Shown here: one piece after another, positions 4,169-51,052 of the stretch
How the letters are laid out: every line of letters starts with the position of its first letter
How positions within the stretch are numbered: the stretch's first letter is position 1
From: Akanthomyces muscarius
Lineage: Eukaryota > Ascomycota > Sordariomycetes > Hypocreales > Cordycipitaceae
Assembly (NCBI RefSeq): GCF_028009165.1
Contig: NC_079246.1
Span: 1,488,001-1,552,000 of the forward strand
Length of the DNA stretch: 64,000 bases
Direction of reading: 5' to 3'
Made by a program: the position numbers and the translations under genes
Notes under the pieces: model-generated
What the model was told of the DNA's origin: nothing
The model's input: the letters and a program-made list of their open reading frames with translations, nothing else
Databases searched by the model: none

Positions 4169-4248
4169 TCCGGTATGGTGTAGTGGCTAACATCGCTCGC
4201 TCTCAACATGGAACCGAGCAGCCCAGGGTTCGATTCCCTGTACCGGAG
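4169..4248 (+). tRNA. tRNA-Glu (anticodon CTC) with a short intron
   Basis: The acceptor stem is TCCGGTA (4169-4175) paired with TACCGGA (4241-4247), with discriminator G4248. The T arm is CAGGG-TTCGATT-CCCTG. The anticodon stem is GCTCG (4195-4199) paired with CGAGC (4214-4218). The anticodon CTC is at 4202-4204. The anticodon loop is 15 nt instead of 7, so an 8-nt intron (about 4206-4213) sits at the canonical position after base 37. The A box (TGGTGTAGTGG) and B box (GGTTCGATTCC) are intact. The D-loop has no insertion, unlike the two tRNA-Leu genes in this window. Confidence 0.93.
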
Positions 4249-29218: not shown

Positions 29219-29784
29219 AATTTTGTTGTGACTTTCGTGGTTGCGAAGCGCTCCTTGGGCAGTGGCTTCCGACCTTGGCTGTTTTTTTAGCTTCAGCGGC
29301 ATTGACGAGTTTTAGCTCACGGTACGGATATAGGCGCCGATTTGAAATACAATAGTTTAATTACAATGCAGGGGGTTTGTGAATAATCTTTAGCTGTGAG
29401 GAGCTTTAAATAAGCCGATCGAGTTGGCACGATGAAAACTCGGGACACGAAATCGGCCGTTTCTTGTCCGTAGCCTGGAACGAGTCTTCCATTCGGCGGA
29501 ATGGATGCCCAGTGCAAACATTTTCCAGGGCACTCGTTTGCCACATATATACGTACAAAACTCAAATCAGAGTTCGAAGGCGTACAGCTGCAGAACCGCA
29601 GGGTCAGTGTATGGCACTTTATGGCGGGCAATCGTGCGAAATTTTGCATGGCATATCTAAAAGGGCGAGCTTGAAGCAGCCTGTTCCCTCACCGCGCGAG
29701 GCAGCATTGACGAGATGGAGCAAAAAAGGAATAGCGTACAGTATGCCTGACTTGATACAAGAAACGGCAAAAAAAGAAGATCTC
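29219..29784. other. Spacer between CCZ1 and the minus-strand tRNA-Leu
   Basis: CCZ1 3' region and the downstream flank of the tRNA-Leu gene, including its T-run terminator at 29769-29775. No gene is seen. Confidence 0.6.
29769..29775 (-). terminator. Pol III terminator of tRNA-Leu copy 1
   Basis: Seven Ts on the minus strand, 10 bases after the tRNA 3' end. The flank GAGAT-TTCTTTTTTTGCC is shared with the other copy except for one base. Confidence 0.8.
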
Positions 29785-29934
29785 TGATGAGAATGGGATT
29801 CGAACCCATGAGGATTGCTCCACCAGGAAACATATTAAGGTGACCTTAACCTGGCGCCATAACCTGATATTTGTTAGACGTGGGTCGGCTAGTGATGAGC
29901 TGTGGATATAACATACCAACTCGGCCATCTCACC
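29785..29934 (-). tRNA. tRNA-Leu(AAG), copy 1, with anticodon-loop and D-loop introns
   Basis: Acceptor GGTGAGA pairs with TCTCATC, with discriminator A at 29785. The D stem is GCC/GGC. The anticodon stem is CCAGG/CCTGG with loop TTAAGG...T, giving anticodon AAG. A 15-nt intron follows base 37, and its CCTTAA can pair with TTAAGG as usual for tRNA-splicing endonuclease substrates. The variable arm is GGA-GCAA-TCC and the T arm is ATGGG-TTCGAAT-CCCAT. A second, 53-nt insertion (29864-29916) splits the D-loop between G18 and G19. Without both insertions the tRNA is 82 nt and fits class II tRNA-Leu fully. The A box survives in DNA because the insertion starts with G. Standard tRNA finders may miss it. 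Confidence 0.9.
29864..29916 (-). other. GT-AG intron-like insertion in the D-loop of tRNA-Leu copy 1
   Basis: Read on the minus strand, it starts GTATGT, has GTCTAACAA with the branch-type CTAAC about 10 nt before the end, and ends ATATCAG. These are textbook fungal spliceosomal signals, in a 53-nt piece like the shorter mRNA introns here. Excision restores the standard D-loop GAGTTG-GTTAT. That it is spliced is an inference. Confidence 0.75.
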
Positions 29935-30176: not shown

Positions 30177-33100
30177 ATGTCAGCGCTGAGGCCTGCGCGC
30201 GACGCATTTCTCCAACAAGAGTCAACACCAGCTCGGCCTGCGCTATCACGACGATTTAGTGCAGAAAATCATGTCGGCTTGACGAAAACCTGGACAGAGA
30301 ATAAGCGGCGGAGAAGCAGCGAGGGCAGCTTTAGCTTACTACAGTCGCCTGGTCAAACGATTCTCCGCGAGCTGAAACGACGCATGACGACCCAAATGAG
30401 CGCGAGATCCCAGCAGTTCGCCCAGTTTATCTCGGCCCGATGTATCCCGGTGCACGCTCCTGAGGGCTGTATTGAAATACTCCGGGCATGGCTTTATGCT
30501 CCAATATTCGTGACGGACGAGGAGCTCGCCCGCATTCTCGATATTCAGCCCTCAACATCTGCCTCGCCTAAACTTTCGTCTAGCTCGATATGCTATTTTA
30601 GATCCTGGACAATGGCCGCATGGCAACTTCAAGTCGTGATTCAAGATCTAATTTCTCAGGGGTTCTGCAATGACATCCTTCCCAGCTGGACAACGCTCTT
30701 GCAAACATGTTCTCCTAACAGCATCGTCACACCCAGGTATGTGGGCACCACTTCTTCGCCTTCCAACCCTTGGCAACGCACTCAGGCCCAACCAAAAAGG
30801 CCCAACTCGATAAAAGGCGCCTTTATCGACTCTTTGACTTTCTTTTTCCCCGAAATCGCAAACTCGCACAAGATCTATTCTATTCAGAATACAAAGACGT
30901 ACGACATTGTGTGTCACATGGCTTTCGAGGCAGATAAAGTTTCTTTGAAAGCCACTGAGGCACTTGTAGATCAAGTTGAGAAAGCCATGATTGGCTTTTT
31001 CCAGCCGAGAACACTGCTCAATTGCCAAGCTGGTGGAAAGCGACCAACTGCAAGTCCACATGCGCAAGATGAATATGCATTTATCCGCTGTGGTTCATCT
31101 CTGCTTGCTAACCTTGGTAGCTTACATGCGGTGCAAAACAAGCTTATCTCTAAGGAAGTGGCGGAGCTTTTCGAAGTATGGTAGGAAAACAACTTCAAAC
31201 TCGACCAGACCTGTATGCAGAATGTGCCATTTCCCACGTCGAGGGCGTACTTACGGAGCTGTATCGTGCAAGCTGTACCTCTGCAGATTGCTAGCACCAC
31301 TCTAGGGGTAATATGTGCTGAAGAGGTGCCATTGAGAACTACCAAAGACACCAGTGCTTTTTGGGATGCGAAACGAACTTCCTCTGAGTTCGTCTCTAAC
31401 ATTATCCAGTCCATAGCAGAAATGGAACCCGGTACAACAGGCAAAGGCGTCGGCCAGCTAGTACGCCGCCTGAAAGACTCAATTGGTGTTAACCAACTCT
31501 ATAATTGGCCCGGAAGCAATGCCGCTCAGCGTGAGCTGTCTGCAGTGAGTAATGGGCTGCCGCTATTGACTCATCTCTAATGACATCATAGAAGGTGCTT
31601 TCATCTTGGCTTCGCCTTACATGTCCGATTGTGTCTATAACATTTGGAAAAATCACCTCGGGTTGGGTTTGCAATGGACAAAGAACCCCCATGGCACAGT
31701 ACATATGTGGTTGTGCCCTTACTTCGTCATTATGAAGCTAATATGAACTGCAGCTTGTTGAAAGAATGCGGGGTGGCTAGAATCGCCAGTCTTGACCGGA
31801 ACATTCTTGTTCCTACCATTGCAATTCCTCACATACATCCGGGTTTTTTTGTCCGCACTCATCAGACTGAGGGAATACAACGAGTAGTCTGGCTTTCATG
31901 GGCAATCACTTGGATCTATTGGGACTCAACAATAAAGATACTCAGTACCGGCGCAAATGGTCAAGTAGACCGAGCGAACATTTGCGATAGAGTTCAAGAG
32001 CACGCGAAGGGTGTGCTAGAACAAAGTGGACTACAGTATCGTCTCCAGCACGCCAAAGCCTCGCTGGAAACAACATGGGCTGGGAATCGCATGAAGAGGA
32101 ATGAGAACTGGGCTACCGAAGCAAATAAGCGACTACGGCACACAGTGTTTGAGTCGCATAATGAAAAGCGACAAGATATTCTCGACAAACATGATGCGAA
32201 ACGCAGGCGACTACTCGACAAGAGCAGTTGCGGATCAGACAAACTGGTGGAAAACGACGACATAGCTCCAATTACGGGTTCTGAACTACTCAATTTGCCC
32301 GTCGGTGTAGAAAAGAAGCCCTCCTTCAGCGACTTCGAATATTTGACTCGCCTTGAGCGCTTTGGGCATCTGTATGGACAGCCACATACCGCAGAGAGGC
32401 TACAACAAGCGGAACAGCTATTTGGTTCCTGGTTGTGGCTTCATTATGGTAAGATGGACAAAAATGAATGGATGGAATTCTTGGTCGAGCAGCCAAACAA
32501 TTATTATTTGGCCGCCTGTCTTGAATCGACGGAAGGTCCCGAAACGATACCCCACAGCAAGCGCTGCTGGCTGCAAGACAGCATGCTTGAAGGCAAGAAT
32601 GTGACTATGATTAATGACTTCGACTCGCGACGCTGCTTGATACAGGAAATATCCGAGGGTATGATGAATAAGCAAGCAAATTGGTTGCAAGACTCGCACA
32701 AACGTGGACAAAAACTGAAAGCACACGCTCCCCCAGTCAACGAACTAAATGGATCCAGAATCCACGTCAACCAGCATGGACTTATCACAATTAAATATCT
32801 CCAGCAAATGAAGACGGCTACTATCCAGATTAAGTTTGGTTCATCTATCACTCCGCTCAATTATCTTGATCTACGAACGATACATTTCACTGAGAGCGGC
32901 ATTGACATCCGGAACAACTTGAATCAAATTTTGCACGGAAAATGTTCAACCAAAGTAACGACAATTCCGGTCGATACCTTCCCCATGTACGGAAACGGCA
33001 GGGAAATCATCTCCATATGGAGTGAAGCAACTGGTTTATGCTATCCTGAGTCGCCCCGTTTCGAGGTTGACTCACCAGGAACTATCAATCCTGGTCAGCC

Positions 33101-33563
33101 GATCCCCAGCAAATTACCCACCAAAACCTCCATTGCTCGACCCTCAGAAAATGATGCACTGTGGCTGCTGAATCGATTTCTGACCGAGAATTTGCCGGGC
33201 GGTGGTGAATTTTGGACGGGAGGCAGAGACCTGTACCCAATGCGGGCAGATGATGCAGTTGGCACCGACGATTTTCTTCGGTAAGTTTAGATATATTATA
33301 CCACTTGTCTCTGACCAGGCAGTCGCTCATAGATTACGAATAGGTTTCTTCACTTGCCGGCACATGCAATGCATCCATATGCGTCGGATTGGTCGAATTT
33401 GTTGACATCTTCAAAAAATTGCAACGCTCTGCGCACGTCGTTGCAGCTTCTTCGCTCCACTGTAGTGCGGCGACAGAATGCTCCACGAAGCAAAGTACCC
33501 GCAGGACAGAAGACGTTGCGGTGCATTGTCTACGACTTAGGGCCTCAAAGCGAGCATAATTGA
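30177..33563 (+). CDS. Unrecognised multi-exon protein between the two inverted tRNA-Leu genes
   Basis: I do not recognise the family. My model has five exons: 30177-31175, 31221-31544, 31592-31698, 31754-33280 and 33344-33563, giving 1058 residues. The introns are GTATGG...GCAG (45 nt), GTGAGT...ATAG (47), GTACAT...GCAG (55) and GTAAGT...ATAG (63). Intron 1 removes an in-frame TAG, and intron 3 makes the frame change needed to reach the long fourth exon. Visible parts are a basic Ser/Arg-rich amino terminus, a helical middle, a charged stretch (about residues 565-620) with KRLRHT and KRRRLLDK as possible nuclear signals, and a Cys-poor carboxyl end. Base composition is about half GC, lower than neighbouring genes near 60 percent. 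No membrane segment or signal peptide is seen. Exon 4 to 5 in the +1 frame would encode a Cys/His cluster, so the end of the model is uncertain. Confidence 0.6.
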
Positions 33564-33792: not shown

Positions 33793-33945
33793 GGTGAGAT
33801 GGCCGAGTTGGTAAGCATCCCTGAACAACCGCCCAGTCAGTCAACTAGTGTTAACAACCCTCAAAGGTTATGGCGCCAGGTTAAGGTCACCTTAACGTGT
33901 TTCCTGGTGGAGCAATCCTCATGGGTTCGAATCCCATTCTCATCA
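33793..33945 (+). tRNA. tRNA-Leu(AAG), copy 2, with anticodon-loop and D-loop introns
   Basis: Same tRNA as copy 1 in opposite orientation, 3.86 kb away. Acceptor GGTGAGA (33793-33799) pairs with TCTCATC (33938-33944), discriminator A33945. The anticodon AAG is at 33883-33885. The anticodon-loop intron is 15 nt (33887-33901) and differs from copy 1 at two bases. The D-loop insertion is 56 nt (33811-33866). Removal of both gives the same 82-nt tRNA as copy 1. The B box GGTTCGAATCC is intact, and the A box is intact up to GG. Confidence 0.9.
33811..33866 (+). other. GT-AG intron-like insertion in the D-loop of tRNA-Leu copy 2
   Basis: Starts GTAAGC, carries GTTAACAA with the adenosine about 12 nt before the end, and ends CTCAAAG. 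It lies at exactly the same D-loop position as in copy 1. The sequence in between differs strongly from copy 1, while the 5' GT, a central CTAG, TAACAA and the terminal AG are shared. Confidence 0.75.
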
Positions 33946-33954
33946 GAGATGTTC

Positions 33955-33961
33955 TTTTTTT
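33955..33961 (+). terminator. Pol III terminator of tRNA-Leu copy 2
   Basis: A run of seven Ts, about 10 bases after the tRNA end, in a flank shared with copy 1. Confidence 0.8.
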
Positions 33962-43416: not shown

Positions 43417-45462
43417 GGTTGGCTGGCGGTCGGTTCCCTCGTGACTGGGGAGGACGGGATTAGACTGATTGATAATGAGGCGGGCTGCGAGAGAAATCCC
43501 GTGGATGAAGGGCTCCGGGTCGTGGCTTGAAGGAACGGGCGACTGGCTTGACAAAAATTTCTCTTGTTTCCAGATTTTAACTTGGGATGATCGTCGCCTT
43601 GCGTTATTTCGCTAATGGAATTGTGAGGGCCCTTGTGGCGGCCTCGGCCAGCCTTTGCCAAATGCCGTCTTTGTGCAATACTGCCTATATGATTATTTCG
43701 ACCCTCAGACGGCGTTCTGGACCCTGAGTCTGATGGAGCGGCTCAAGGCCCGCTGCAGGTCCGATAAGGCTGCTTATCTACGTGCAGGAAGCAAGGGCAA
43801 GTGCATCAGTAAGTGCGTGCAGCCTGCGAGGCATTGCGAAATATTTCGTACGTCTTGAGGCGTCTTTTTACCATGCGTGTATTGGTTCGAGCAGCCTTGT
43901 CATTTTAGTTTACTTGAAAGACCGGTGGTGTTTTAATGGCTGCCACACACCCACCCAGCCGGTAGCGAGTTTGCGGTACGTACCCAGGTAGTGCACAAAG
44001 TGTGGTGTATTGATGCGCATCCCTCGTCGACACGGGCAACTTTTGCGGTTTGATGAGATACATCACTCTACTATGCAGGTCTGATTATTGCGTCGCATAT
44101 CCCAGTGATTCAAAAGGCCGTTTTCATGGCTCAAGATATATACCGCATTTGCTTTGCAGCTGGTACATACGACCACAGGCAATAGAAAATACCGCGTCCC
44201 GTCTGCTCCGCGTTCGTCAAGCTGTTGACCGGCAGATTAGTAGTTGGGTCGGTGACGACCAGCGAACACCGGCTGTTGTATGTCTTTATTTTTTCTTTTT
44301 GCTGCCATCATTTTTAACATTTTTAATTGAATTTCTCATCGTGTTGGACCGACAAGCATCGCAAGGTGTGTAGTGCTGGTTCGACGCCACCTAGAAACCG
44401 CAGATCGTGTCGAGATGGCGTCTTGGCGCTAACGCTAGCTGTGAGTGGTAGTTACAGATACATCTCCCAACCACCAATCGTGGGCCAAATTCCAAGTACT
44501 GCTTCTGGGTGGCTGCAGCCTGCAGCCTGCAGGTGGCTTTGGCTGCGTTTGCCTGCGTCAGGTATGTGAAGCCCCAAAATAGTACAGGGGCAGACCGTCT
44601 GTACTTGGGCGTACTGGGACATTGCGGTTTCCCATTCATCTTTTTGTCTTTGCCATTTTCTTCCGTGTCGTTTTTCCTTTTTCGGTACTCACCAGCTCGA
44701 CACGGATCCGATCTGTAGCGTCAATGCGCAGACGCGACTCACAGTCTGCGCAGACGCGCGCTGCTGGATCGATAGCCTCACAGCCATGCCCAGCGTCCAG
44801 CTCCAACGCGGTCGTTGGCTCCCAGCAGCCAGCGCCGCTCCCGTATACGCTCTCTCAATTCAATGAAATAAACTCAAATCCTGGTAAACTTCCAATCATC
44901 GTCACTCGCATTTCTCAAAAGTCAAGTTATCGATCCTGCCCCGTTCGATAGTGCGGCCCCACGTCTCACCCTCCGACAGATGGCAAGCTGGTCAGGCGTG
45001 TCACCACCGCGCTCTGGAATGCACACCTCTCAATGCCCAGCCCTCGTTCCTCATCCTTCTGCGCGCCCCCTCCCCGCCAAGATGCTTTACGCGTTCCCAG
45101 GTCCTGCCAGACACGAGACAGTCCGCCTCTGCCCGTAATGGAAATGTGCTTTTTTGCTACCTGCTGGGACCCTCCCGCTCCCCCATCCTCGCTTTCCGCA
45201 CAATGCGCCGTGGGGCGATTGTGTAGGAATGAAGGGGGCGGTATCGACAAAATGTGGCCAGCAATCAGGTGCAGACAGTTTGAAGACATTGATACACCCC
45301 CTCGTCGCCTGCACTCTTGCATGACTTTTCTTTTTTTTTTCTCCTTCTCCTTCCTCTCGTCACCATTGCCCTTACAGTGTCTCTTCAACACATCGTGACC
45401 AGCTGCTCCCTGGAGTATCACGATCATCTTAGCGCTCGTCCACCCGGCGCTGCAGAGTCATC
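43417..45462. other. Divergent promoter region methyltransferase/AXL2
   Basis: Two kb between divergent genes. The right part is pyrimidine-rich and probably the AXL2 leader. Open frames here (for example 44622-44951 and 45033-45398) have no motif. No gene is seen. Confidence 0.5.
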
Positions 45463-48057: not shown

Positions 48058-48594
48058 GTTTGGAGCGCCGAGTAAAAAAAGCGATGGTTTATTATGACGA
48101 CGTGTTGATGATTTCAATACTTTTTTTTCTTTTGTTTCATGCGATTGATACCAGAATATCCATAACAGTTGAGCATGGGGAATTAGGAAGGACTATGGGT
48201 GGACATGATGTATGAGTACCGGCGCATTCGAGACAACGGTGCGTTTGTCTGGCATATTTTGGGGGTATATTTTGGATTCTATTGTGCTTTGTGTACCAGG
48301 AATATAGAAATGGCGTTTAGCATTAATTTTTTTCAACTGCTGTATACCAATGAAATTGCCACAGGTGCAAGACAGTCAGGGTGAAGTGAGCAGCATGTCA
48401 TGCCACAGGTGAATAATGACCCTGCAAACACCGGCATGCCGCACTGGCCGTTCGCAGTTTCCCGCTCTTCCTTTAAGTACGCTCCCACAGCTCGAATAAA
48501 TTCGCCCTTCTTCACACATTCCGCACTTCTACATATCTTACCAGCCATTACATACATTGACCTTGCCCCCCTCTCGTCGTCGCCATACCCAACG
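48058..48594. other. Intergenic region AXL2 to Gag-like gene A
   Basis: AXL2 3' region and promoter of Gag-like gene A. An in-frame upstream ATG at 48400 would extend gene A by 65 residues. No long terminal repeat is recognised. Confidence 0.5.
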
Positions 48595-49566
48595 ATGCCG
48601 CCTCTCACGCCACCCCAGGAGCCATGTCCCGCCTCGAGAGATGTTGGAAAGCTCAGCGGTTTCGACAATTGGCATACCTGGCACATAAAAGGTCGCATGG
48701 CTCTTCAAAATCTAGGCCTTCGACACCTACTCACCGACGACGGCGTCAAGGACGCGGACGACCCTGAAGCAGCCAGCCAATACGACTCTGACCGAACCGC
48801 CGGTGTGCGTTTCCTGGTCGATAGCATCTCCGAGGATATTCTGGCCAGCGCGTACGGCCGAGGCTGGAAGCCCGAGGACGCCACGGTGCAGAGCACCCTC
48901 AACACACTCGAGACAATTGTTAGAGACGCACAACGACAGCGACACGATGAGGAGGAGAGGACGACGGTGGCCAGCAAGTGCTTGGCTGGCCTGACGCGCA
49001 TGGATCTCGCCGCCGGGGCGCAGACGATCAAGGAATACATACTGACGGCCAAGCACTGCCACGACGGCCTGCTTGCGCAGTACGGCGACGGCGCGAGCCC
49101 TGTGGAAGACGTTCTAGAGCAACTGTTTGTGGTGTCGCTCCTGGAAGGCCTCCAGACGAGCCAGCCCGAGTGGTACTGCGAGTGGATGGAGAAGCTCAAG
49201 GAAGGCACTCTGGGGCACGCGAGCACGCGGGATGGCGTTACAGAGTGGCTACTGGCCAAAGACACGGCCACTCCCCAGACAGGGCAGGACAATGATGCCA
49301 CCATTGCCGCGCCACGAGGTCGGCCCTCGGGAAAGAGAGCTAGACTCGGCCGTGTTGATAGAAGACGCCAACGCTGCCGCTATTGTACCGACCACCATCC
49401 GCAGTCAACTCCCCACGAAGAGACAGACTGTTGGTTCCTTAACCCGCATAGGGCGTCGCGCAAGTGGCAGGGCATTTACAAGGACGAGGTGGCGGCCCTG
49501 AGGGACCATCTGGGGTACAACGGCAAGAGGAAGAGGTCCGTATCGACGTCTTCGCATCGTGCCTAG
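48595..49566 (+). CDS. Gag-like protein A (Ty1/copia-type Gag fold, no polymerase)
   Basis: 323 residues without introns. The amino part has the Gag/UBN2-type opening FDNWHTWHIKGRMALQNLGL, then helical regions with LTRMDLAAGAQTIKEYILTA and LEQLFVVSLLEGLQ. Near the carboxyl end is a Cys/His cluster (CRYC...H....CW) reminiscent of a retroelement zinc knuckle, followed by a basic tail. No protease, integrase, reverse transcriptase or RNase H frame follows, and no long terminal repeats are seen. The gene is therefore best read as a captured or residual Gag. It is paralogous to gene B 580 bp downstream in the same direction. The start at 48595 aligns with gene B; an in-frame ATG at 48400 is an alternative. 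Confidence 0.75.
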   Translation: MPPLTPPQEPCPASRDVGKLSGFDNWHTWHIKGRMALQNLGLRHLLTDDGVKDADDPEAASQYDSDRTAGVRFLVDSISEDILASAYGRGWKPEDATVQSTLNTLETIVRDAQRQRHDEEERTTVASKCLAGLTRMDLAAGAQTIKEYILTAKHCHDGLLAQYGDGASPVEDVLEQLFVVSLLEGLQTSQPEWYCEWMEKLKEGTLGHASTRDGVTEWLLAKDTATPQTGQDNDATIAAPRGRPSGKRARLGRVDRRRQRCRYCTDHHPQSTPHEETDCWFLNPHRASRKWQGIYKDEVAALRDHLGYNGKRKRSVSTSSHRA

Positions 49567-50143
49567 ACGCGATGGGGATGGGATGCCGCACAGGAAGTTC
49601 CAGGTACGAATTGATGATGGAGTTGAGGCTGAATTTGGGGAATTGATATGACTAGGCTACGCTTTAGACATGGTTCTCGGATATGCGGCTGATTATGACG
49701 GGGAAGGTTGCTATTGACGGGCAAGGTAAGAAAGGATGGAGTACAGCCATTTCAGTATTCAGATTCGCTCTGGCTCTAGCTGGACTCACTAAAGCCTGGC
49801 CGCTTTGCTTCGGTAGTTGAGATGAGCAGATTAATAAATGGGTGTCCGCACCGTCCATTCACTATGAATCCTGGATGAGCTGCATGCAACTGCCCCAGGT
49901 AGTAACGATCCTGCTCGAGCGATTACTAGAACACGTTTCTGTGGTTACTGTGTGGAAACTCATTGTGCGTTTGCAGCTGGCAGCTGGCAGCGGACGGGTT
50001 CGCGCGAGTTGCTGCCTGCCACCCCGGCGGTGTTTGTCCTTTCCCCTTCCTCTAAAATGTCTCTTTTGTTTATCTCCTCGCAGGACAGCATTTTCACAGA
50101 AACAAAAACAAAGACGTTCAGAGGACTAACGATAGGCTCCAAA
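49567..50143. other. Spacer between the two Gag-like genes
   Basis: No coding signal beyond the upstream extension of gene B's frame, which has an ATG at 50057. No terminal repeat is recognised. Confidence 0.5.
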
Positions 50144-51052
50144 ATGACGCGATACTATCACGATTCGAGTCGAAAATTCAAGGAACTCCGCGGCCATAGC
50201 TCATGGAACAAGTGGCACAAGGCTGTGCTCGTGCAGCTCGACATGATGGGTCTTCGACATCTGCTACAGGCCAATCTCCGGCCGCTGAGCGTCGTGGAGC
50301 AGTATACGTACGCCGCAGACCAGCAGCGGGCCGTGCAGCTCCTCGTGACCAACATGTCGGAACAGGTTCTGCAGAAGCTCTGGAACTGCGGGTGGGAGAT
50401 CACCGGCGCCACGCTCAAGAACACTCTCGCGCTGCTGACTGATCTGCTGGCCGAACCAGAGCGGCATCTGCAGCAGAGCTACGAAACACACCGCGACATT
50501 GTAGACCTGGCACGCATCGACCTGGCGCTGGGGACCAAGGGGTTTGACCAGTTCCTCGCGGACGCGCAGCAGTGCCACCTGCGGCTGCTCGCGCGCTACG
50601 GCGGCGGCAACGGGAGCGTCGAGGAGCTGCTCGAGCACCTGTTCACCTCGTCGATCATGGAAGGGCTCAGGGCCGCCAAGCCGACGGACTACACGGAATG
50701 GATGCGGGCGCTGGAGCGGGAGACGTGGCACCACCACCCGTTTGTGGAGCAGATAATCTCGCTGGTTAAGGGACCTCGTCTGGGCGGCAGTGGCAGGACA
50801 GCAGAAGACGCTGCGTTGGCGTTGGCGGGCGCGCCGCGAGGGCCGAGGGAGTGGGAGCGAAAGGAATGGGAGAGACGCCGCGCTCGACGGCTTGCGAAGC
50901 GAAGCCGCACGGCATGGCGACTGCCGCCTTACGTGACCTATCAAAAGAGGTATCGGGGAAAAGACTATCCCGATTGTTATCGGCCGAGTCATGAGGGCGA
51001 TGCGGAAGAGACGAGGAATGATCGTTTGTGTTCGTTGGATGAGATACTATGA
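50144..51052 (+). CDS. Gag-like protein B, paralogue of protein A
   Basis: 302 residues without introns. The opening (SSWNKWHKAVLVQLDMMGLR) and the middle (LARIDLALGTKGFDQFLADA, SVEELLEHLFTSSIMEGLR) align with protein A over most of the length, while the spacer and tails differ. The carboxyl tail is Arg-rich (RRRARRLAKRSR), and the Cys/His cluster of A is lost, leaving isolated Cys. Both frames are open and full length, which argues for selection and not for dead retroelement debris. An in-frame ATG at 50057 would add 29 residues. Function is unknown; RNA binding or a capsid-like role is only inferred. Confidence 0.72.
   Translation: MTRYYHDSSRKFKELRGHSSWNKWHKAVLVQLDMMGLRHLLQANLRPLSVVEQYTYAADQQRAVQLLVTNMSEQVLQKLWNCGWEITGATLKNTLALLTDLLAEPERHLQQSYETHRDIVDLARIDLALGTKGFDQFLADAQQCHLRLLARYGGGNGSVEELLEHLFTSSIMEGLRAAKPTDYTEWMRALERETWHHHPFVEQIISLVKGPRLGGSGRTAEDAALALAGAPRGPREWERKEWERRRARRLAKRSRTAWRLPPYVTYQKRYRGKDYPDCYRPSHEGDAEETRNDRLCSLDEIL

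Follow-up and report, generated by a model that had tools for sequence, protein, structure and literature searches.

Putative spliceosomal introns within transfer RNA genes of the fungus Akanthomyces muscarius

The stretch of DNA considered here, hereafter called the window, comprises 64,000 nucleotides (nt) of the Akanthomyces muscarius genome (assembly GCF_028009165.1, contig NC_079246.1, positions 1,488,001 to 1,552,000) and contains an inverted pair of transfer RNA (tRNA) genes for leucine, each interrupted twice, with one of the two introns lying in the D-loop and bearing the signals of a spliceosomal intron. Gene A, a tRNA-Leu(AAG) gene, occupies window positions 29785..29934 on the minus strand and is read from 29934 down to 29785. 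Its first exon (29917..29934) supplies the 5' strand of the acceptor stem and the D-arm up to G18, the second (29844..29863) extends from D-loop G19 through anticodon-loop position 37, and the third (29785..29828) begins with position 38 and provides the remaining anticodon stem, the variable arm, the T-arm, and the 3' strand of the acceptor. The first two exons are separated by a 53-nt D-loop intron (29864..29916; GTATGTTATATCC...GTCTAACAAATATCAG) that starts with GTATGT and ends with CAG; a preliminary description had already placed such an insert between G18 and G19, and this observation, including its coordinates, proved exact. The CTAAC motif that it located about 10 nt from the intron end lies at 29877-29873 (29873..29877 on the minus strand), 9 nt ahead of that end, and resembles a branch point. 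A 15-nt canonical anticodon-loop intron of the Sen type (29829..29843) separates the second and third exons. On the same strand, sequences that we take to be the A box (TGGCCGAGTTGG, 29916..29927, whose final G doubles as the initial nucleotide of the D-loop intron) and the B box (GGTTCGAATCC, 29796..29806) are present, and a run of seven T residues 3' of the gene (29769..29775) resembles a terminator of RNA polymerase III (Pol III).

Removal of both introns leaves 82 nt with a 7-base-pair acceptor stem and a class II variable arm, which ARAGORN identifies as tRNA-Leu(AAG), in agreement with the earlier proposal of a complete class II tRNA-Leu of this length. The D-loop insert can be drawn in four equivalent registers that yield the same product, and only one of the four has GT-AG ends. 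When introns are disallowed, unspliced gene A receives no ARAGORN call, and the first window-wide ARAGORN and Rfam runs did not report it, so ordinary annotation could miss this gene. The signature of the insert, defined as a GT[AGT]NG[CT] start, YTAAC 5-16 nt from the end, and a terminal [ACT]AG, was reproduced in 2 of 200,000 shuffles, and in none of 100,000 with YTAAY permitted.

A genome search with gene A returned one full-length relative, gene B, an inverted paralogue about 4 kb away within the window (33793..33945, plus strand), whose mature sequence is identical to that of gene A. The D-loop intron of gene B (33811..33866) is 56 nt long, begins with GTAAGC, ends with AAG in the terminal sequence GTTAACAACCCTCAAAG, and occupies the same site as its counterpart in gene A, with a diverged interior. 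It includes a branch-point-like TTAAC at 33851..33855, 11 nt ahead of its end. Gene B likewise possesses a 15-nt canonical anticodon-loop intron (33887..33901), which differs from that of gene A at 2 of 15 bases, and a run of seven T residues on its 3' side (33955..33961). With the first 6 and last 19 bases set aside, the interiors of the two D-loop inserts are identical at 16 of 34 positions, against a mean of 15.5 after shuffling; divergence of the interiors is thus saturated between genes with identical exons. The search also detected two relatives on contig C10 that match only from base 77. Both are tRNA-Leu(AAG) genes with no D-loop insert, and because of them neither gene A nor the Leu family taken alone proves excision. 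These two genes belong to a tandem cluster (C10:691693 onward; locus L035, 3694-4173) together with a third Leu gene, whose anticodon is CAG by eye and which ARAGORN, run without introns, names Pro. Within the window, two open reading frames (335 and 546 amino acids) lie between the inverted Leu genes (30177-33284, plus strand), with no Pfam family at E <= 0.001; a further two frames likewise gave no Pfam match.

Nine further tRNA genes with GT-AG inserts were found elsewhere in the genome: two Trp(CCA), one initiator Met, one Thr(TGT), three Ser(AGA), one Ser(TGA), and one Arg(TCT). The longest of the listed Rfam tRNA matches, on contig C3, is a tRNA-Trp(CCA) gene with a canonical intron and a variable-loop insert, GTACGT...GTCTAACCCCATAACAG; 256 bases further on, a second Trp gene with an identical mature sequence carries a different insert, GTACGT...ATCTAACTCCTTAACAG. 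As in the Leu pair, the exons are identical, and the insert interiors agree at 11 of 33 positions versus 13.9 after shuffling. Both Trp genes found therefore carry a GT-AG insert, and an uninterrupted one was not found: a 25-mer of the 5' half, allowed up to three mismatches over 36.2 Mb, recovered the two interrupted genes only; the joined exons, used as query in a DNA search, returned the same two, each in two pieces; and a less stringent D-arm pattern matched 71 places (59 in the control), with no further Trp gene among the 40 examined. In unspliced form the two genes (C3:3658226-3658620) are named Thr and Cys by ARAGORN.

Among the places matched by the D-arm pattern is an initiator-type tRNA-Met gene whose variable loop is split between AGG and TC by GTACGT...CTAACAACTACTAG. 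Initiator-type tRNA-Met (A1-T72) occurs in two distinct sequences (loci L002, L003, and L078), one of them intact and present in two copies, the other represented by the single copy with the variable-loop intron. A tRNA-Thr gene (locus L001), the only Thr(TGT) gene found by DNA search, is split inside the anticodon itself, with GTTAGT...CTAACATCTCAAAAAG inserted between CTTG and TAA. Excision at its GT-AG boundaries gives a UGU anticodon followed by A37, whereas a cut at 37/38 gives UGG, a Pro anticodon, with U37 in a Thr body.

The Ser and Arg genes emerged from B-box matches, taken as a sample with less bias. The bare B-box pattern occurs at 512 genomic places against 717 in the control and is therefore not specific by itself; the sample consisted of the first 100 places, all on contig C1, of which 90 were fetched, while nine of the remaining ten were already Rfam matches and one (in locus L058) holds no tRNA according to ARAGORN. 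Judged from T-stem, acceptor, and A-box, 13 of the fetched places are tRNA genes (eight by script, five by eye), and five of these 13 contain GT-AG inserts, namely the three Ser(AGA) genes, Ser(TGA), and Arg(TCT); the proportion becomes 5/22 once the nine known genes are added. All four Ser inserts follow the D-loop GGTT, and the Arg(TCT) insert lies at 31/32. Overall, 11 of 73 examined tRNA genes are interrupted, in an inventory that is incomplete. The total of 73 combines 68 distinct ARAGORN calls made with introns allowed, which take in the interrupted Leu (two), Trp (two), Thr, and Arg genes, with the one Met and four Ser genes that ARAGORN missed.

Other searches contributed to this inventory or delimited it. 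In the Rfam tRNA search of the genome, 63 out of 781 candidates were scored, with 51 places in the resulting list. A strict tRNA-frame scan of all the DNA examined, whose A-box rule leaves the four Ser genes outside, gave seven frames longer than 110 bases, all seven among the 11 interrupted genes. The combination of A-box and GTANGY occurred at 11 places (18 in the control), two of them the Leu genes and the other nine without a tRNA by ARAGORN; branch site plus B-box occurred at 13 (26 in the control), of which two are the Trp genes and 11 again lack an ARAGORN tRNA. A search with a query of nine tRNAs produced seven matches, five of them to the Val segment. A pattern scan of other genome contigs gave two records, both of bacterial metagenome-assembled genomes, and scans of viral contigs with Trp and Met exons gave none. 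One viral record (L114) that matched the Leu exon pattern was discarded, the match lying inside a coding sequence by eye and Rfam reporting nothing there.

The 11 inserts, distributed over seven isoacceptor groups, share one architecture. They measure 53, 56, 56, 55, 51, 60, 53, 53, 54, 51, and 54 nt; every one has a GT[A/G/T]NG[C/T] donor, a YTAAY motif 9-11 nt before its end (CTAAC in nine, TTAAC and CTAAT in one each), and a terminal CAG (six), TAG (three), or AAG (two). In seven, the single register that restores the tRNA is the GT-AG one, and each of the other four has two to four equivalent registers, exactly one of which is GT-AG. Over all inserts the whole signature, which was drawn up after the data had been seen, arose in 7 of 1,100,000 shuffles. 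Once the insert is taken out (together with the canonical intron in the case of Leu and Trp), ARAGORN calls all 11 genes as the expected tRNA type, compared with none before removal when introns are disallowed. In length and signals the inserts resemble coding introns of the same genome, as judged from three introns of the window's ATG7 gene (GTATGC..CTGAC..CAG, 81 nt; GTGAGA..CTGAT..AAG, 48 nt; GTAAGC..CTAAC..TAG, 58 nt). In two segments, each about 150 residues long, the ATG7 product is 96% and about 90% identical to Beauveria bassiana entries, the remainder being blurred by differing gene models, and it is 81% identical to a Torrubiella entry over two aligned parts; this places the fungus probably in the Cordycipitaceae, close to Beauveria. 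Self-splicing group I or II introns were rejected as candidates, as the catalytic core of such introns needs some hundred nucleotides, and inserts of 51-60 nt are too short to hold one.

Six insertion sites are represented: D-loop 18/19, D-loop after GGTT, 31/32, anticodon 35/36, and variable loop 46/47 and 47/48. None of the 11 inserts is at 37/38, where Sen introns reside; that of Thr lies at 35/36 and that of Arg at 31/32. A GT-AG insert and a canonical anticodon-loop intron occur together in six genes (both Leu, both Trp, Ser(TGA), and, in our reading, Arg), and the expectation, stated in the preliminary description, that eukaryotic nuclear tRNA genes normally have one intron each is exceeded in these six of 11. 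Non-canonical introns in D- and T-arms have been described in nucleomorphs and a red alga (PMC4090602), and the inserts might accordingly be cut by Sen at unusual positions through a fold resembling a bulge-helix-bulge (BHB), as in archaea, nucleomorphs, and Cyanidioschyzon. Two of the 11 inserts, both in Ser genes, do reach four central pairs when three registers are allowed on each side; the other nine fall short, although this test is a weak one, given that only four of eight canonical control introns pass it. Such cleavage would leave unexplained why GTNNGY, YTAAY at 9-11 nt, and HAG are found in 11/11 inserts and why the interiors diverge freely, and in Thr a cut at 37/38 would yield the wrong anticodon. 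This explanation is considered highly improbable.

Another possibility is that the interrupted copies are decaying pseudogenes from which the inserts are never removed. Insertions in the D- or T-arms of eukaryotic tRNA genes mostly affect a single gene among many synonymous ones and are supposed to mark pseudogenes, according to PMC4090602, and the insert-free copies of Leu(AAG) and initiator Met would suit this scheme. The Trp genes do not fit a one-of-many-copies pattern, no uninterrupted tRNA-Trp having been found. Moreover, in the Leu and Trp pairs the exons have stayed identical beside saturated insert interiors, acceptor and T-stem pairing is kept, T-runs lie 3' of six genes (all those whose downstream flank was read), and the tRNA bodies are undecayed, as the 11/11 correct calls after insert removal demonstrate. 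Decay is thus very unlikely to account for these genes. That splice signals were kept while the rest was lost would instead be expected if selection acts on exons and splice sites.

The presence of inserts in several genes and at several sites of one genome also raises the question of whether they are recent copies of a single mobile element of the introner type, since introner elements can carry splice signals. Searches with five of the 11 inserts, those of Leu A (within its gene), both Trp genes, Met, and Thr, recovered only the inserts themselves and tRNA paralogues, which makes such a recent spread extremely improbable. As this proposal concerns the origin of the inserts, it would leave the manner of their removal unchanged.

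On this sequence evidence, the inserts are very probably U2-type spliceosomal introns residing within Pol III tRNA genes. Support for excision comes chiefly from both Trp genes, from the Thr anticodon, and from the comparison of paralogues rather than from gene A. Splicing of the gene A precursor by the spliceosome, as originally suggested, is the best explanation, and it gains much strength from the genome-wide data, with 11 genes, six sites, one common GT-AG and branch-site architecture, and the failure to find an uninterrupted Trp gene. All 11 inserts are located at or past the A-box end and ahead of the B box, so the internal promoter survives. Transcription would start from the A and B boxes, both left intact by the introns, with the first G of the intron completing the A box in Leu(AAG). 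The spliceosome would then recognize the GTNNGY donor, YTAAY as the branch site, and the HAG close to it, and the exons would be joined via a lariat. Removal of the anticodon-loop intron from the two-intron genes would fall to the Sen endonuclease and to tRNA ligase, probably after the spliceosome has acted, because the insert breaks the body of the tRNA, which Sen is held to gauge; a ruler mechanism of this kind is set out in PMC4090602.

Several observations weigh against this interpretation. For Leu(AAG) and initiator Met, insert-free copies exist as well, so the interrupted genes of these two types could be dispensable. Inserts are absent from U6 genes (2/2 listed) and 5S genes (29/29 listed) and are thus not a general property of Pol III genes. 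The tRNA inventory is incomplete, with 40 of the 71 D-arm places covered, and a differently sequenced, uninterrupted Trp gene is possible. Finally, in the mature sequence of both Trp copies (C3:3658226-3658620; loci L055 and L057) the anticodon stem ends in an A31.C39 mismatch.

A broader picture seems likely. The spliceosome may serve as an obligatory tRNA-processing enzyme in this lineage, such that translation of UGG, and perhaps of the UCN serine codons, would depend on spliceosomal excision from Pol III precursors, and the anticodon of tRNA-Thr(UGU) would be built by the spliceosome. Two unrelated machineries would act on the same precursor in six genes, because these also possess a canonical anticodon-loop intron, and at least six intron gains into tRNA genes would have occurred, all of them between the A and B boxes.

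No report of spliceosomal introns in tRNA genes was found in the open PubMed Central (PMC) literature, as judged from titles and abstract openings, a scope that leaves most subscription papers outside. The preliminary description knew of no described example of a pre-tRNA spliced by the spliceosome, and we found no precedent in that literature. A 2026 review characterizes tRNA splicing as spliceosome-independent and based on structure instead of GT-AG signals (PMC13149111). If the appearance of the introns reflects the way in which they are spliced, the maturation of nuclear tRNAs depends on the spliceosome in at least one fungal lineage. There are also consequences for annotation, as tRNA software misses or misnames such interrupted genes: with introns of up to 200 nt allowed, ARAGORN assigns the Trp genes to Thr and Cys, the Leu genes A and B of the window to Gly and Arg, and Arg(TCT) to Pro, and it makes no call for the Met gene or for any of the four Ser genes. 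These genes also offer a clean system in which to study the entry of a short Pol III transcript into the spliceosome, the limits that internal promoters set on intron gain, and possible effects of splicing faults back on decoding.

Three other features of the window, all on the plus strand, were recorded. A tRNA-Glu gene (4169-4248; anticodon CTC by eye) contains an 8-nt canonical intron and is returned as tRNA-??? by ARAGORN without introns. A full-length 5S ribosomal RNA gene (44165-44284) is one of 29 dispersed genome copies listed, all 120-121 nt long. By eye, two open reading frames at 48400-51052 have in common a short stretch resembling W-x-x-W-H, and they might be related; the one that was tested gave no Pfam match.

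Among known systems, introns of U6 genes are an obvious point of reference, and they exist in other fungi besides fission yeast. Fission-yeast U6 provides the precedent for the earlier statement that spliceosomal introns occur in Pol III transcripts of some fungal U6 genes, its intron being of the messenger RNA (mRNA) type according to PMC10484740. The inserts described here are likewise introns of spliceosomal type in what would be Pol III transcripts. However, U6 is itself a component of the spliceosome, and reverse splicing has been suggested as the origin of its intron, whereas the hosts here are several tRNA families interrupted at several sites, and the two listed U6 genes of this genome are intron-free. 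Canonical Sen introns at 37/38 similarly interrupt tRNA genes and need removal, and six of the 11 genes carry one in addition, but they differ from the inserts in where they sit, in how long they are, in sequence signals, and in the machinery presumed to remove them. The tRNA introns of nucleomorphs, Cyanidioschyzon, and archaea also occupy D-, T-, and anticodon-arm sites, sometimes two or three to a gene (PMC4090602). In the Guillardia nucleomorph they span 3-24 nt, with an unknown mode of excision (PMC4090602), those of Cyanidioschyzon and archaea depend on BHB folds, and the available part of PMC4090602 describes no GT-AG or branch-site signals for any of these introns. The inserts are alike in form to fungal pre-mRNA introns, with a GTNNGN donor, CTRAY shortly ahead of HAG, and a length of about 50-80 nt; what sets them apart is the host, which to judge from gene anatomy would be a short, presumably uncapped tRNA precursor made by Pol III.
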